Positions 12,180-32,534 of a stretch of DNA of 64,000 bases are shown in pieces. Source of the stretch: Alkalicella caledoniensis (lineage in GTDB: Bacteria; Bacillota; Proteinivoracia; Proteinivoracales; Proteinivoracaceae); NCBI RefSeq assembly GCF_014467015.1, contig NZ_CP058559.1, positions 2,666,001-2,730,000 of the forward strand. The letters run 5' to 3'. A model generated the notes under the pieces. That model made no database searches. It was given only the letters and a program-made list of their open reading frames with translations, and was not told the DNA's origin. Position 1 is the first letter of the stretch. Every line of letters starts with the position of its first letter. A program made the position numbers and the translations under genes.

Positions 12180-13122
12180 AATCGCCTTTATTTTCCCTGG
12201 CCAAGGTGCACAGTTTGTTGGTATGGGAAAAGATATAATTGAGAACAACGAAACTGCCCTTAAAATTTATGATAAAGCCAATGATATTTTAGGGTATGAC
12301 ATCAAAAATATTATTTTAAATGGCCCTAAAGAACAACTAGACAGTACAGAAAACACCCAACCCGCTATACTAACAATGAGCTACGCATTATTAGAGGTTT
12401 TAAGAAGTGAAGGTATAACACCCCAAGGTGTAGCAGGCTTGAGTTTAGGTGAATACAGTGCACTTTTATCATCCCAAGTAATGGATTTTGAATCTGCCCT
12501 TCCTTTGGTTAGAAAACGTGCAAAATTTATGCAAAGTGCTGTGCCAGTAGGTGTTGGTGGAATGGTTGCTCTAGTGGGGATTAAAAAAGAAGGACTTACT
12601 GAACTTGTAGATAGTATAGAAAGTGGCTACCTAGCTGTTGCTAATTATAACTGCCCTGGACAATATGTTGTTACAGGGGAAAAAGATGCCATAGCAGAGA
12701 CAATGGAAAAGGCTAAGGAGTTTGGTGCTAGAAGAGCAATAAAACTTGATGTAAGTGGACCCTTTCACTCAAAATTACTAACAGAAGCTGGGGAAAATTT
12801 AGGAATAGAGTTAGACAAAATCCAATTACAAGATCCAGCAATTCCAATATATAGTAATGTCACAGCAAAAACCTATGAAAATAAATTAGAAATCAGAGAA
12901 TTATTAGTTAAGCAGGTAAGTAATTCTGTATTATGGCAACAAACCATAGAAAATATGGTGGCTGATGGTTTTACAGGTTTTGTAGAGGTAGGACCACAAA
13001 AAACTTTATCTGCAATGGTAAAAAAGATTAGTAAAGATGTATGGGTTAAAAATATTGAAGATAACGAAAGTCTTATGACTTTTATTAAAGAATTTAAGGA
13101 GGGAGTTCATGAAACTAAATAG
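12172..13122 (+). CDS. fabD: Malonyl-CoA:ACP transacylase
   Basis: Transfers malonyl from CoA to ACP. The 316-aa protein shows IFPGQGAQFVGMGK at the N terminus, the nucleophile elbow GLSLGEYSAL (Ser about 92), the substrate Arg in VRKRAKFMQ (about 117) and the catalytic His in SGPFHSKLL (about 200). It starts with GTG at 12172, inside the end of fabK (8-bp overlap), and its own end overlaps fabG by 14 bp, so three genes are translationally linked. The acyl carrier protein it loads is not encoded here. Confidence 0.96.
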   Translation: MSKIAFIFPGQGAQFVGMGKDIIENNETALKIYDKANDILGYDIKNIILNGPKEQLDSTENTQPAILTMSYALLEVLRSEGITPQGVAGLSLGEYSALLSSQVMDFESALPLVRKRAKFMQSAVPVGVGGMVALVGIKKEGLTELVDSIESGYLAVANYNCPGQYVVTGEKDAIAETMEKAKEFGARRAIKLDVSGPFHSKLLTEAGENLGIELDKIQLQDPAIPIYSNVTAKTYENKLEIRELLVKQVSNSVLWQQTIENMVADGFTGFVEVGPQKTLSAMVKKISKDVWVKNIEDNESLMTFIKEFKEGVHETK

Positions 13123-13852
13123 TAAGGTAGCTGTAGTTACAGGAGCCTCTAGGGGAATTGGCAAGGCAATTGCACTTAAGTTAGCTAAAGAAGGTGCAAA
13201 AGTTGTTGTTAATTACAACTCCAGTGAAGAGGAAGCCAACAAAGTTGTTGAAGAAATAGTAGCCTTAGGTAGCGAAGGAATTTCTATTAAAGCAGATATT
13301 TCAAACTTTCAGGATAGTCAAAGGCTTATAGATGAGGCAGTAAATGCCTTCGGCACCATAGATATACTAGTAAACAACGCGGGGATTACAAAGGACAATT
13401 TACTACTTAGAATGTCAGAAGAAGAGTTCGACAAAGTTATAGATGTAAACTTAAAAGGTTACTTCAACTGTACAAAAGCTGTATCAAGACTTATGTTAAA
13501 GAAAAAAGCGGGTAAGATAATTAATATTACTTCAGTTATAGGTATAACAGGAAATAGTGGCCAGTCAAACTATGCTGCTGCTAAAGCAGGAGTAATCGGT
13601 TTTACTAAGTCACTGGCTAAAGAGCTTGGTAGTAAAGGGATCAATGTAAATGCTGTGGCTCCAGGCTTTATTCAAACTGATATGACAGATAAGCTACCTG
13701 ACAATGTAAAAGAAAATATAGGTCAAAATATACCCCTAAAAGCCCTGGGTTTACCTGAGGATGTAGCAAATTTAGTAAGTTTTCTAGCTGGGGAAGAAAG
13801 TAAATACATCACTGGACAAACCATTGCAGTTGATGGTGGTCTAGCACTATAG
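13109..13852 (+). CDS. fabG: 3-oxoacyl-ACP reductase
   Basis: NADPH-dependent short-chain dehydrogenase that reduces beta-ketoacyl-ACP. The 247-aa length is typical. Visible motifs are the Rossmann TGASRGIGKA (about 12-21), NNAG (about 89), the catalytic Ser in ITSVIG (about 141) and YAAAKAG (Tyr/Lys about 154/158). It begins within fabD (14-bp overlap) behind AAGGAGGG. In many Firmicutes acpP lies between fabG and fabF; here fabF follows after only 21 bp and acpP is absent. Confidence 0.96.
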   Translation: MKLNSKVAVVTGASRGIGKAIALKLAKEGAKVVVNYNSSEEEANKVVEEIVALGSEGISIKADISNFQDSQRLIDEAVNAFGTIDILVNNAGITKDNLLLRMSEEEFDKVIDVNLKGYFNCTKAVSRLMLKKKAGKIINITSVIGITGNSGQSNYAAAKAGVIGFTKSLAKELGSKGINVNAVAPGFIQTDMTDKLPDNVKENIGQNIPLKALGLPEDVANLVSFLAGEESKYITGQTIAVDGGLAL

Positions 13853-26500: not shown

Positions 26501-27781
26501 ATGGGAGAACTCTTTGAAAGAGTTGAAATAAGTAAAGGAATAAACTTATATTTATACAACACAGATAAGTATAAAACAATTTCTGTAAGAGCCTTTCTTT
26601 ACACCAAAGTTGATGAAGAGATTACAAAGACTTCGTTAATACCATTTGTTCTTGCTAGGGGTACTGAAAATTACCCAGATAACTTGACTATACGCAGGGA
26701 ACTGGCCAATTACTATGGAGCACAGATGGGCACTGGGGTCACTAGACGAGGAGATGTGGTGCTAGTTGACTTCCGTATGGAGATGGTCAGTCCTCACTAT
26801 GTATCTGGCGATAGCTACGTGGAAAAATCGTTAGATGTATTAAAAGAAGTGATTTTCAATCCAAGGAAAGAGGGAGAAGGCTTCAAAGAAAGCTTTGTGG
26901 ATGTTGAAAAAGAAAACACAAAAAATAGGATTATGTCTTTGATTAACGATAAGGGAAGATATGCCTTTGAAAGGGCAGTACAGATCATGTGCCCTAACGA
27001 CCCTTATAAATACTATAAATATGGAAAAATCGAAGACTTGCCCAAAATAGATGCAGTAAATCTTTATGAAAAATACCAAGAGATTATCAACAACAGTCCA
27101 ATGGATATCTATGTAGTAGGTCACTTTGATAAAGAAAAAATATCCTCTATGATAAAAGAGAGGTTCAATGTACCAAGAAAAAGCTTAGTTCCAGTGGAAA
27201 AACCAATAAATACAGAACTCTTAGAATTTAAAGAAGTTGTTGAAGAAATGGATATTAACCAAGGTAAATTAGTTATGGGTCTAAAGACACCTATTACTAT
27301 GGAACATGAATTATATCCAGCTTTGCTTATATATAACGGAATTTTAGGTGCCTTTTCACATTCAAAACTATTTCAAAATGTTAGAGAGAAAGCTAGCCTG
27401 GCGTACTATGCAGGATCTAATATAGAATCCCTAAAAGGATTACTTTTCATCTTCGCTGGCATAGAACCTGCCACCTATACACAGACAGTAGAAATTGTTA
27501 AACAGCAACTGCAGGACATGAGGGATGGAAGCATTACAGAGAAAGAATTTTCTTATACCCTTGCGGGTCTCGAAAGTGGACTTTTGGAAACCTTTGATGA
27601 AGTCGGTGGACAAATAGGATTTGCTGTTGATGGCGGAATTATTGGAAAAACCATTACCATAACGGAACTATTGAAAAAAATAAAGGAAGTAACTGTGTCA
27701 GATGTGGTAAAGGTGGCACAAAGCGTGGAATTAGAGTTGATATACTTCTTAAAGGGAAAGGGTGATAGCAATGACAGTTAA
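26501..27781 (+). CDS. yfmF: M16-family peptidase-like protein, non-catalytic partner
   Basis: 426 aa, two M16-type half domains. It lacks the zinc motif HxxEH: where a peptidase would have it the sequence reads FVLARGTENYP. It keeps the later GVLGAFSHSKLFQNVREK-type region (about 290) that shapes the chamber. This pattern is that of YfmF, found with YfmH as an inactive/active pair, like alpha and beta subunits of mitochondrial processing peptidase. The start follows AAGGAGG. The gene overlaps yfmH by 11 bp. Substrate unknown; secreted peptides or lipoprotein signal fragments are possible. Confidence 0.9.
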   Translation: MGELFERVEISKGINLYLYNTDKYKTISVRAFLYTKVDEEITKTSLIPFVLARGTENYPDNLTIRRELANYYGAQMGTGVTRRGDVVLVDFRMEMVSPHYVSGDSYVEKSLDVLKEVIFNPRKEGEGFKESFVDVEKENTKNRIMSLINDKGRYAFERAVQIMCPNDPYKYYKYGKIEDLPKIDAVNLYEKYQEIINNSPMDIYVVGHFDKEKISSMIKERFNVPRKSLVPVEKPINTELLEFKEVVEEMDINQGKLVMGLKTPITMEHELYPALLIYNGILGAFSHSKLFQNVREKASLAYYAGSNIESLKGLLFIFAGIEPATYTQTVEIVKQQLQDMRDGSITEKEFSYTLAGLESGLLETFDEVGGQIGFAVDGGIIGKTITITELLKKIKEVTVSDVVKVAQSVELELIYFLKGKGDSNDS

Positions 27782-29048
27782 AACCCTAGAGTTTGCAGAG
27801 CTTAAAGAAAAGGCATATACTTGGGAAATTAAAAATGGTTTAACAGTGATTTATGTACCTAGACCCAACTTTAAGAAATCCTTTGGGGTATTTGCCACTA
27901 ACTACGGGGCCCTAGACTTTGCAGGGGAAGATTATGATTTTCCACCAGGGATTGCACATTTTTTAGAGCATAAGCTATTTGAGGGTCCTGAAGGTAATAT
28001 CGAAGACGAATTTTCTAAGCTAGGGATATCTGTTAATGCATTTACTACACATATCCATACCTGCTACTTTTTCTCGGCCACATCGAACTTCTATAAGGGA
28101 CTAGAACTGCTTATGGACTTCGTCCAATCAAGTCATTTCACTGAAGAGAATGTCCAGAAAGAAAAGGGGATAATTGCCCAGGAAATTGAAATGTATAGGG
28201 ATGATCCAAGCTGGGTAGTATATTTAAATTTCCTAAAGACCATGTATCCAAATCATCCTATTAATCGTGATATAGCAGGCACAGTAGAAGATATCATGAA
28301 AATAACACCACAAATGTTAGATGAGTGCTATAAAAGGTTCTACAACACTGGGAACATGGTTCTTTTAGTTACAGGTGATTTAAGCTTAGATGAACTGAAA
28401 GATTTCATTGAAAAAAATCAAAACGGAAAAAATATAGAAAAACTGGAGAAGTATAAAAGATCCACAAAAGTAGATGAATCAATACCGAAAAAAAAGACTG
28501 TGGAAGTTAAGATGAACGTATCAAGGGATATTTTATGTATGGGCTTTAAAGATAAAAAGGTTGGTGAAACAGGTAAAGAATTATTTAAAAAAGAAATATC
28601 TACACTACTATTGATGGAGACAATAATAGGTAAAGGGTCGAAGCTTTTTAATCAACTCTATGACGAAGGAGTATTAGATAATAGTTTTGGTGTTGAGTAC
28701 ACAGCTGAGGACGGTTACGGTCACACTGTTATAACCTTAGAAACAGAGGACCCCCACGGATTTATTGCAAGATTAGAATCAGAGCTAGAAGAAATAAAGA
28801 AGAATGGCCTTAATAAAGAAGAATTTGACCTAAATAAACGCAAACTTGAAGGACTTAATCTAATGGAAATTAACTCACTGGAAAATGTAGTTCTAGGTTT
28901 CATGGGAGACTACTTTAGAGACTCTAATTATTTTGAACGGATAGAGACAATTAGAGAAGTTGCCTTTGAGGATGTTGAAAAAAGATTGCAGGAACATCTG
29001 GATTTCGACATGTGTGGCATCTCAATAATAAAAAGAGAGGATAAGTGA
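27771..29048 (+). CDS. yfmH: M16-family zinc peptidase
   Basis: 425 aa. The inverted zinc motif HFLEH (His63, Glu66, His67) is present, followed about 75 residues later by the Glu-rich AQEIEMYRDDPSW expected for the third ligand. The fold is the M16B type (two repeated half domains). ATG at 27771 is chosen over GTG at 27762 because the N terminus and the GGGTGA site fit better. It is the catalytic partner of the preceding gene. A terminator overlaps its last codons. Confidence 0.92.
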   Translation: MTVKTLEFAELKEKAYTWEIKNGLTVIYVPRPNFKKSFGVFATNYGALDFAGEDYDFPPGIAHFLEHKLFEGPEGNIEDEFSKLGISVNAFTTHIHTCYFFSATSNFYKGLELLMDFVQSSHFTEENVQKEKGIIAQEIEMYRDDPSWVVYLNFLKTMYPNHPINRDIAGTVEDIMKITPQMLDECYKRFYNTGNMVLLVTGDLSLDELKDFIEKNQNGKNIEKLEKYKRSTKVDESIPKKKTVEVKMNVSRDILCMGFKDKKVGETGKELFKKEISTLLLMETIIGKGSKLFNQLYDEGVLDNSFGVEYTAEDGYGHTVITLETEDPHGFIARLESELEEIKKNGLNKEEFDLNKRKLEGLNLMEINSLENVVLGFMGDYFRDSNYFERIETIREVAFEDVEKRLQEHLDFDMCGISIIKREDK

Positions 29049-29513: not shown

Positions 29514-31115
29514 ATGAAAAAAATTATTGGCCTGGCTCTGATTTTAATTTTGGTTTTTTCTAGTATTAGCTTTGCTACAACAAGTGCTTTCTGGCCTGAA
29601 GGCTGGTCTGATGTTGAACAAATTGGTTCATACTCTAGGACCTTAGGGCAAGTACAATGGGTACAAATTGATGATACTATGCATTTTTTGTCTACTAAAG
29701 ATAAAGATGATGAACTGGTATTCCAACTAAAATCCTATTCTCTAGTTGACGCTAAAGTAGTGGGAGAAATAGACCTTTTTAGCACAAGTAGGGGAATACA
29801 GGATGTAAAGCTATACATTGATGATGAGTATATTTCTGTAATATGGGTTGATCTTGACAATAACCTAAACCAGTTTGTATATGATATCATATCGGAAAAA
29901 GGTGAAACAAAGCATATTTATAGAGGTCATAGGAATATATACACACCCTTTGTTACAAGAATAGGTGATAGTTGGCACTTCTTTTGGAGCCAAGTTTTTG
30001 AAGGAAGTACAAATATATTGCACGGTAGTGTAGATTCAAATGGAAACTTTACTAGGGATGAAAATGTGTTTTTGGGTAACGATGTGCTAAATCGTGTGGA
30101 AGATATAAAAATGCATGATGGCTTGCTTTATATTTCATGGGTTGGAGATGGTTCCCAAAGGGGTTTAGCAGGTCTTGTAAATGTATTTTTATCTATATTT
30201 GATGGAACACAGATAACTCAAACTGAACATATTGTACAATTTACTGGTGAGAGCTCTGGTAAGCCAAGGCTTACTTTAATTAATGATGAACTTCAGATCT
30301 TTTATGAATATGTTTCGGCAAGTACGCTTTCTGGTCAAAAATTCTTTAATATTTCAATTGTGGGCATAGGGGATGATAGTGAGCAAACTATATCTATACC
30401 TTCTAACACTGGATTTAGTATTGAAGGTGATGACTCAGATATCTTAAAACTAGTTACCACTAGATTTGTGGGAAACAACACAGAGCTTTTTTACTACAAG
30501 TACAACAATAAAACACAGTTGCAAGAACAGACGCGTTTGACATATAGCTCAAAAACATATTCAAACCCCATACTAGTTTCTTATGATGGATATGAATTTA
30601 TATTTTATGATGAGGGAATGGTTAGAAATAAGAGTTTGCTTGTTATTAATAATAAATTTGAGGGTACACCTACTGTTTGGAGAGAACTTGGAGTAGATGA
30701 GGAAAACGTTCTAGCATCACTCATATATAACTTAACATCTAACCTTATGATGGCAGCTCTATTTTCCTTTTATGGGACCATCTTTGCCGCTGGCATTTGG
30801 GCAGTTTTTGCCCTATTAAGGAAGTTTAAGGTTTTGTCTGGAGCCTCAGAGAATTGGAAATCGAATTTATTGCAAAGTATAGTTGCTTGCTTAGCAATGA
30901 CCTATACCATGGACTCTTTTTTAGTTGGTTATAATCACCAGATGTTTACACCTTTTCAAGTTTATGCATCTATTGCCGCCATAGCTTTAATTATTGTACC
31001 AATTTCCCTATCAAAATTGCGTTATGAAGATGTATCTTTACCTTTAGCTATACTTGGATATACAATGATATACATTATGATGTTCATGCATATAAGTATA
31101 ATTAGTTTTGTATAA
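29514..31115 (+). CDS. Secreted propeller-like protein with C-terminal membrane domain
   Basis: 533 aa. A signal peptide (about 1-23, KKIIGLALILILVFSSISFA) is followed by roughly 370 residues of repeated beta-strand units with W and aromatic pairs (for example SVIWVDLDNN, SWHFFWSQ, LLYISWVGD, EFIFYDEG), the look of a beta-propeller. It ends with about four membrane helices (from about 405). The propeller would face outward. I do not recognise the family. The ATG follows AAGGGGG. It is monocistronic, between a gene-free leader region and a strong terminator. Confidence 0.75.
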   Translation: MKKIIGLALILILVFSSISFATTSAFWPEGWSDVEQIGSYSRTLGQVQWVQIDDTMHFLSTKDKDDELVFQLKSYSLVDAKVVGEIDLFSTSRGIQDVKLYIDDEYISVIWVDLDNNLNQFVYDIISEKGETKHIYRGHRNIYTPFVTRIGDSWHFFWSQVFEGSTNILHGSVDSNGNFTRDENVFLGNDVLNRVEDIKMHDGLLYISWVGDGSQRGLAGLVNVFLSIFDGTQITQTEHIVQFTGESSGKPRLTLINDELQIFYEYVSASTLSGQKFFNISIVGIGDDSEQTISIPSNTGFSIEGDDSDILKLVTTRFVGNNTELFYYKYNNKTQLQEQTRLTYSSKTYSNPILVSYDGYEFIFYDEGMVRNKSLLVINNKFEGTPTVWRELGVDEENVLASLIYNLTSNLMMAALFSFYGTIFAAGIWAVFALLRKFKVLSGASENWKSNLLQSIVACLAMTYTMDSFLVGYNHQMFTPFQVYASIAAIALIIVPISLSKLRYEDVSLPLAILGYTMIYIMMFMHISIISFV

Positions 31116-31122
31116 AGTCATA

Positions 31123-31156
31123 AAGAAAGAGGGAGCAAAAATGCTCTCTTTTTTAT
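31123..31156 (+). terminator. Terminator after propeller-membrane gene
   Basis: Stem AAAGAGGGAGCA/TGCTCTCTTTT with an A-rich loop, followed by T-run. Confidence 0.88.
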
Positions 31157-31226: not shown

Positions 31227-32381
31227 ATGGCTAATATCTCAAAAATTAAAAATCCTACTACTATACAGTATGGGGAAGAATCCATCAACAGTCTCCCGAA
31301 GGCTTTGAAGAGCCTAAAAGCGAAGAAAATTTTAGTTATAACAGATAAAAGTATAATACAACACCAACTTTTTAAGAATGTAATGGTTTATGTTGACAAT
31401 CACTATGAGTATATATCCTACGATAAGATATCTGGAAATACAGATGTAAATATTGTATCTGAGGTTACGTCCCTGGCCATAGAAGAAAATGTAGATACCA
31501 TCATTGCCATTGGAGGCGGAGCTGTTATAGATACTGGGAAGGTTGCATCTTTAAAAGCTAAAAATAAAGATGAATGGGACTGGGGCGCTTATACCATTAA
31601 AGATAAGGAAAAACTAAATATGGTAGCCATCATTACAACTCTTACGTCAACTTTTTGTAATACACCCTTTGCCTTTATACGAGACCCCGGTAAGGAGACC
31701 ACAAGAATTCTTACAGGGGAAGGACTCTTTCCCGACGTAGCCATAGTGGATAGTAGACTAGCTATGACACTACCTTATAGCAAAAAAGTATCTGCCGTAA
31801 ATACTACCCTATCTACAATCCTAGAAGGGTATATTTCAACTCTGTCAACACCCTTTACTGATGCAATAACCCTAGGGGCATTAGAACTTCTTATGGATGG
31901 CATTAACTTGTTCTTATGGGATGAAAACAACACCAAAGGCTTAGAAAAGATACAGCTGTCAGGGGTACTAGCTTCATACGGAGTTAATAACGCCATGCTG
32001 GGAATTATTGCAGCCACTGCCAATACAATTTGTGGAAAATACCCTGTAGATTTCGGGGAAATATGTGGTGTAGTCATGTCGGAATATCTAGAACTAAATC
32101 TGTACTCAAAACTAGAAAAGTTTGCAAAAATAGCTAAAAGAGTTATCACAGATCCCGAAGCAGATACCATGTCAAAGGAACTCTTGGCAAAAGAAGGCCT
32201 TCATAAAATGAAAGAACTCCTTGATAAACTCAGATGTCCAAGAACATTATCAGAATTAGGAATACAGAAAAAAGACCTTCCTGATTTGGCAGAGAAAATA
32301 GCAGAAGATGATGGTCTATTAAGCTGCCCTGTAATACCAGATAGTCAGGAGATATTGTCCATACTAAAGGGACTTTACTAG
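31227..32381 (+). CDS. Iron-type alcohol dehydrogenase fold protein lacking metal ligands
   Basis: 384 aa, full-length for the Fe-ADH family. The nucleotide-binding GGGAVIDTGK (residues 96-105) is intact. In active enzymes the metal is held by one Asp and three His; here the matching positions read Thr193 and Thr197 (in AVNTTLSTILEGY), Ala262 (in IIAATANTI) and Phe276 (in VDFGE). All four appear replaced by non-ligands, so ordinary metal-dependent alcohol oxidation is unlikely. The alignment was made by eye around the conserved Glu200-Gly-Tyr. ATG at 31227 follows AGGAAGTGA. It could be an inactive regulator, a nucleotide-binding protein, or use another chemistry. Confidence 0.8.
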   Translation: MANISKIKNPTTIQYGEESINSLPKALKSLKAKKILVITDKSIIQHQLFKNVMVYVDNHYEYISYDKISGNTDVNIVSEVTSLAIEENVDTIIAIGGGAVIDTGKVASLKAKNKDEWDWGAYTIKDKEKLNMVAIITTLTSTFCNTPFAFIRDPGKETTRILTGEGLFPDVAIVDSRLAMTLPYSKKVSAVNTTLSTILEGYISTLSTPFTDAITLGALELLMDGINLFLWDENNTKGLEKIQLSGVLASYGVNNAMLGIIAATANTICGKYPVDFGEICGVVMSEYLELNLYSKLEKFAKIAKRVITDPEADTMSKELLAKEGLHKMKELLDKLRCPRTLSELGIQKKDLPDLAEKIAEDDGLLSCPVIPDSQEILSILKGLY

Positions 32382-32449: not shown

Positions 32450-32534
32450 GCCGGAGTGGCGGAATGGCAGACGCACTTGACTCAAAATCAAGCGACCACA
32501 AATCGTACCGGTTCAAGTCCGGTCTTCGGCACCA
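32450..32534 (+). tRNA. tRNA-Leu (anticodon CAA)
   Basis: 85 nt including encoded CCA. Acceptor GCCGGAG/CTTCGGC, anticodon loop CTCAAAA giving CAA, long variable arm (class II), T-loop GTTCAAGTC. Confidence 0.96.

Follow-up and report, generated by a model that had tools for sequence, protein, structure and literature searches.

A full-length iron-containing alcohol dehydrogenase-fold protein of Alkalicella caledoniensis with all four metal ligands replaced and a conserved, remodelled cleft

What becomes of an alcohol dehydrogenase when every residue that should hold its iron is gone and the fold is kept? A gene of Alkalicella caledoniensis (GCF_014467015.1) raises this question. It lies in the 64,000-nt stretch analysed here, referred to as the window (NZ_CP058559.1, positions 2,666,001-2,730,000, forward strand), and its features are collected in Table 1. 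The open reading frame is unbroken, and although a GTG located 9 bases 5' of the ATG could also serve as a start, the ATG has the better RBS by eye. The protein matches Pfam families PF00465 (2.9e-32) and PF25137 (1.9e-25), both above the cut-off, and its AlphaFold2 model (pLDDT 92.7, pTM 0.91; 47 aligned sequences) reproduces the full-length two-domain fold of the iron-containing (type III) alcohol dehydrogenases (Fe-ADHs). In Foldseek the best 50 matches were all Fe-ADHs, with TM scores of 0.91-0.94 to FucO (the closest, at 0.94), the methanol dehydrogenase of B. methanolicus and 1,3-propanediol dehydrogenase, solved relatives that share 22-25% sequence identity with the protein. Profile match and fold together place it in the Fe-ADH family by descent and confirm an earlier view of it, formed from the sequence alone, as full-length. 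The genome encodes three other Fe-ADHs, all ordinary, at genome positions 1086822, 2258383 and 2551510. Two orthologues, each 49% identical to the A. caledoniensis protein, were found in genomes G002 and G004, both from another genus of the same family (g3); we refer to the three proteins as the trio.

Table 1. Features of the metal-less gene and its surroundings, in window positions
Feature	Position	Strand	Basis
Fe-ADH-fold protein without metal ligands, 384 aa (ATG at 31227, stop codon ending at 32381)	31227..32381	+	ORF, PF00465 + PF25137, AF2, TM
GGGAVIDTGK (residues 96-105), motif of the pyrophosphate loop, with Ala99 where GGGS is canonical	31512..31541	+	alignment
TTLTSTFCNT (residues 137-146) in place of the canonical TTxGTGSEVT loop	31635..31664	+	alignment
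Thr159 at the position of a Lys 100% conserved in the other aligned Fe-ADHs	31701..31703	+	MAFFT alignment
Thr193 in place of ligand Asp; Leu in both orthologues	31803..31805	+	phmmer/MAFFT alignments
Thr197 in place of ligand His; Thr in both orthologues	31815..31817	+	phmmer/MAFFT alignments
Ala262 in place of ligand His; Ser in both orthologues	32010..32012	+	phmmer/MAFFT alignments
Asn266 where an active-site His is usual (aligns with FucO His267)	32022..32024	+	alignment; PMC5125639
New VD[FY]GEICG motif (D275-F276-G-E278-I-C280-G281), nearly invariant, over the last ligand	32049..32069	+	trio alignment
yfmF, conserved upstream neighbour, M16-peptidase-like	26501-27781	+	NCBIfam 'EF-P 5-aminopentanol modification-associated'
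yfmH, conserved upstream neighbour, M16-peptidase-like	27762-29048	+	NCBIfam 'EF-P 5-aminopentanol modification-associated'
Gene for a 533-aa protein	29514-31115	+	
Hairpin resembling an intrinsic terminator, with a T-run, 3' of the preceding gene	31131..31155	+	by eye, weak evidence
TATAAT box, then RBS-like AGGAAGTG, 5' of the metal-less gene	about 31198 (TATAAT)	+	by eye, weak
tRNA-Leu(CAA), conserved downstream neighbour; landmark of the locus across the five family genomes	32450..32534	+	

The sequence-only reading had aligned the Asp/His/His/His iron ligands by eye with Thr193, Thr197, Ala262 and Phe276. The same four residues occupy the ligand columns in phmmer alignments against solved Fe-ADHs and in a MAFFT alignment of the protein with 51 other family members, and the ligand-bearing helices are free of gaps in these and in the HMM alignments. 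Realignment thus restored neither Asp nor His to the site, in favour of the by-eye assignment. Each member of the trio has none of the four ligands (Phe276, at the position of the last His, is Tyr in both orthologues), and alignment of the three proteins revealed no invariant His. Such a complete loss is exceptional: among 137 distinct homologues from the phylum of A. caledoniensis, the DHHH signature is present in 128, and only the trio has no ligand at all. Five others are real Fe-ADHs with one or two ligands changed (EHHI twice, HHHA, VHYH and DQHH), and the remaining one is a distant and probably non-Fe-ADH protein (about 32 bits to PF00465) in which the ligand columns are meaningless. Four of the partly altered proteins, L124 (HHHA; genome G159), L167 (VHYH; G209), L005 (EHHI; G021) and L163 (EHHI; G349), retain the GGGS motif and the Lys; their sites are possibly independent steps away from Fe2+.

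The cofactor site has fared less uniformly. The GGGAVIDTGK string, which had been taken as an intact NAD-binding motif, is present and keeps the GGG-x-x-D-x-x-K core of type III alcohol dehydrogenases, but the GGGS Ser, a residue shared by all (100%) of the other Fe-ADHs in the alignment, is altered in two of the three proteins (GGGA in A. caledoniensis and GSGD in G002; GGGS only in G004), and Lys159 and the GTGSE loop are lost. Since GGGS has become GSGD in the G002 orthologue, the geometry of the cofactor site is itself not strictly kept. Asp102, Lys105, Thr137 and Thr138 of the dinucleotide site are retained in the A. caledoniensis protein, and together with GGG in two of the three members of the trio. 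By contrast, no member of the trio keeps Gly140, Glu144, Lys159, Gly191, His266 or any of the ligands; Thr159 and Asn266 are shared by the three orthologues, the latter at the position of FucO His267, a residue with an active-site role (PMC5125639). Judging from these residues, nucleotide binding is possible without being certain. The A. caledoniensis protein lacks every signature of a metal-dependent alcohol dehydrogenase that we tested, and we infer that it cannot function as one.

Metal-free members of this fold are already known. Maleylacetate reductases reduce ketones without the metal (PMC5125639); they are reported to lack the ligand Asp (replaced by Asn or Arg) and to retain the conserved histidines (PMC5125639, PMC5741723), as in their basic motif LHHKLCHTLGG (PMC5741723). 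The corresponding segment of the metal-less protein, IIAATANTICG, has no His, and maleylacetate reductases (GraC 3w5s, 3hl0 and PcpE) are structural matches to it whose sequence matches are weak. The best NCBIfam profile was that of ErcA (NF041833), an Fe-ADH relative with a regulatory role in the ethanol oxidation of Pseudomonas; identity with ErcA was rejected on the score, 154.3 bits against an equivalog cut-off of 550 bits. We found in the open-access literature no description of an Fe-ADH pseudoenzyme clade of this kind.

The history of the gene can be followed at its locus. In a family sample of five genomes (G000-G004) from three genera (g1, to which A. caledoniensis belongs, g2 and g3), the trio genes share the same position, 3' of yfmF-yfmH and 5' of tRNA-Leu(CAA). 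The two g2 genomes have the tRNA 31 and 26 bp after yfmH, with no gene remnant between. Because A. caledoniensis is closer to g2 than to g3 in several genes near the locus, most clearly in YfmF and YfmH, the simplest history is that the family ancestor had the metal-less gene and that g2 then lost it. When 398 genomes of the phylum were searched, the orthologues (772 bits) stood apart from the next match (154 bits), and the plasmid search returned, among the matches listed, only ordinary Fe-ADHs with less than 27% identity. A GTDB-wide scan with signature peptides of the trio detected no more orthologues, its only matches being two ordinary Fe-ADHs; within the genomes searched, the clade is therefore restricted to this family. 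The trio forms one clade with 100% support. Its stem is 2.47 substitutions per site long and its inner branches measure 0.2-0.6, and we read this long stem followed by short branches as a burst of change and subsequent constraint.

The signs of constraint concentrate where catalysis used to take place. Ordinary members keep 42-48 of the 48 near-invariant columns (at least 90% conserved among them) and the trio only 19-21, with 27 fixed replacements of conserved columns. Among the newly fixed residues are Thr194, Ser196, Thr197, Asn266, Asp275, Glu278, Cys280 and Cys367, and the ligand positions themselves are fixed only in part (T/L, T, A/S and F/Y). Invariant positions nonetheless make up 57 of 82 in the former active-site segments and 110 of 302 elsewhere (odds ratio 4.0, p = 1.6e-7), a comparison to be read with two reservations: family motifs guided the choice of the blocks, and in any protein the residues buried in the core are better conserved. 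Because these segments are the most conserved part of the trio despite the lost family columns, the pocket was rebuilt, not left to drift. Pairwise dN (NG86) ranged from 0.18 to 0.44, similar to neighbouring housekeeping genes; for most pairs dS was either undefined or at saturation, hence no omega is quoted. The syntenic orthologues, the strong purifying selection and the over-conserved, remodelled pocket support the sequence-only reading in so far as it sees a kept fold without the metal site. That reading had gone on to suggest a new activity or a regulatory role; between these two the sequence does not decide.

We conclude that the protein is not an ordinary dehydrogenase and probably does a new job. 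The best explanation, to which we give a probability of roughly 0.45 as a whole, is that the gene is an old, lineage-specific paralogue within the Fe-ADH family and its product a ligand-binding pseudoenzyme with a remodelled cleft, in a role such as sensor, regulator or accessory protein. In one burst the gene would have lost its Fe2+ site altogether, along with most of the signature for catalysis and cofactor binding; from then on strong purifying selection would have held it, with its interdomain cleft rebuilt. A small ligand could then be bound in a cleft that, by motif alignment, would be lined by T194/S196/T197, N266, D275/E278/C280 and C367. The ligand may still be a nucleotide, held through the retained GGG-D-K loop, with no hydride transfer of the Fe-ADH type. 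We also counted in support that the two g2 genomes, which are without the metal-less gene, are also without every ordinary Fe-ADH, whereas both kinds of gene occur in g1 and g3. Against this explanation, neither a regulator nor an operon nor a ligand came to light for the protein. Furthermore, the loss of a metal is no proof of lost catalysis, as the metal-free maleylacetate reductases show (PMC5125639), and strong conservation of the cleft is equally expected of a new enzyme.

The last two points lead to a second explanation, which we regard as a substantial but tentative possibility: a metal-independent enzyme with a new active site, either an NAD(P)H reductase that, like maleylacetate reductase, relies on other acids or a non-redox enzyme working through Asp275, Glu278, Cys280 and Cys367. 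The fold offers a precedent for metal-free catalysis in maleylacetate reductase (PMC5125639), the dinucleotide-site residues persist in two of the three proteins, and the new invariant polar residues (D275, E278, C280, C367, N266 and T197) sit on active-site motifs. However, Lys159, Glu144 and His266 are gone from all three orthologues, one of them carries GSGD at the pyrophosphate loop, and the last-ligand position, being Phe or Tyr, provides no constant acid.

That the protein is a non-catalytic subunit or decoy which joins the cell's ordinary Fe-ADHs in an assembly and tunes them is in our view unlikely. The distribution of the genes invites the idea, with one to three ordinary Fe-ADHs in each of the three genomes that have the metal-less gene and none in the two without. 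Yet the sample amounts to five genomes from three genera, the genomes without the gene are the smaller ones, and the absence in g2 may reflect co-loss or genome reduction, which five genomes are too few to tell apart. No one ordinary Fe-ADH orthologue is common to all three genomes, and a hetero-oligomer with one particular ordinary Fe-ADH was rejected on this ground.

The genomic neighbourhood provides another lead. The two M16-type genes upstream are YfmF and YfmH above the NCBIfam cut-offs, and the reductase of the last step of the EF-P 5-aminopentanol modification is YmfI (PMC5885033), a short-chain dehydrogenase (SDR) whose fold is unrelated to that of the metal-less protein and which has no motif in common with it. 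In three Bacillus-like genomes YmfI directly follows yfmH, the position that the metal-less gene holds in g3. Each of the five family genomes encodes a YnbB homologue and an EF-P that has the Lys32 loop. We found no YmfI in g1 or g3, where the best SDR is FabG by the NCBIfam cut-off (window 13109-13852 in A. caledoniensis), and g2, which lacks the metal-less protein, has a YmfI-type SDR at 270 bits besides FabG (L177:1489-2220 and L178:1495-2226). A metal-free Fe-ADH could thus have taken over the last step from the unrelated YmfI, with the new acidic residues D275 and E278 perhaps holding the amino-ketone. In the phylum sample, however, most genomes with YfmH lack YmfI anyway (about 9 of 31 have a clear one), and what follows yfmH differs greatly from genome to genome. 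The replacement is therefore only faintly indicated; the eroded cofactor site also speaks against a reductase role, and we consider the takeover quite improbable. EF-P aminopentanol modification is itself patchy within this one small family.

The linkage to yfmH is loose as well. The gap between yfmH and the metal-less gene is 52 bp in G002 and 343 bp in G004, and in A. caledoniensis a gene for a 533-aa protein and a hairpin separate the two. With such variable spacing and an inserted gene, the metal-less gene is not a constant member of an operon. From the hairpin and the promoter-like elements read by eye (Table 1), it looks separately transcribed in A. caledoniensis; a scan for hairpins listed the same terminator-like stem on the opposite strand. 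The 533-aa protein starts with what resembles a signal peptide, continues with a long beta-rich stretch that by eye looks like a propeller and has membrane segments at its C-terminus; it matched no Pfam or NCBIfam model. Its relatives are confined to G004 and G002, at other loci, and G009, and its gene stands between yfmH and the metal-less gene only in the A. caledoniensis genome. In G004, two recombinase-like ORFs (L080:5726-6697 and L080:4516-5565) lie directly beyond tRNA-Leu(CAA), which separates them from the metal-less gene; the tRNA appears to serve an integrated element as attachment site.

Two further explanations carry little weight. The complete loss of catalytic residues and the missing gene in g2 might suggest a decaying, functionless remnant of an Fe-ADH, but this is very improbable, because the orthologues are syntenic, their ORFs are intact in all three genomes at 49-74% protein identity, dN is low against saturated dS and the former active site is conserved above average; the random decay that would have undone the sequence-only reading is not what the orthologues display. 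Misalignment, with canonical Asp and His ligands supplied by other residues, is barely conceivable given the gap-free ligand blocks and the absence of an invariant His.

For the metal-free Fe-ADHs known so far, the reported change is the loss of a single ligand with the histidines retained, whereas the trio has lost the entire catalytic signature and yet conserves the rebuilt pocket better than the rest of its sequence. Automatic annotation can be expected to label the protein an 'iron-containing alcohol dehydrogenase', which is almost certainly wrong for the purposes of metabolic models. If the EF-P lead were true, the gene would represent a non-orthologous replacement in the modification pathway of a translation factor. 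The trio is a plain example from nature of how an enzyme fold is put to new use.
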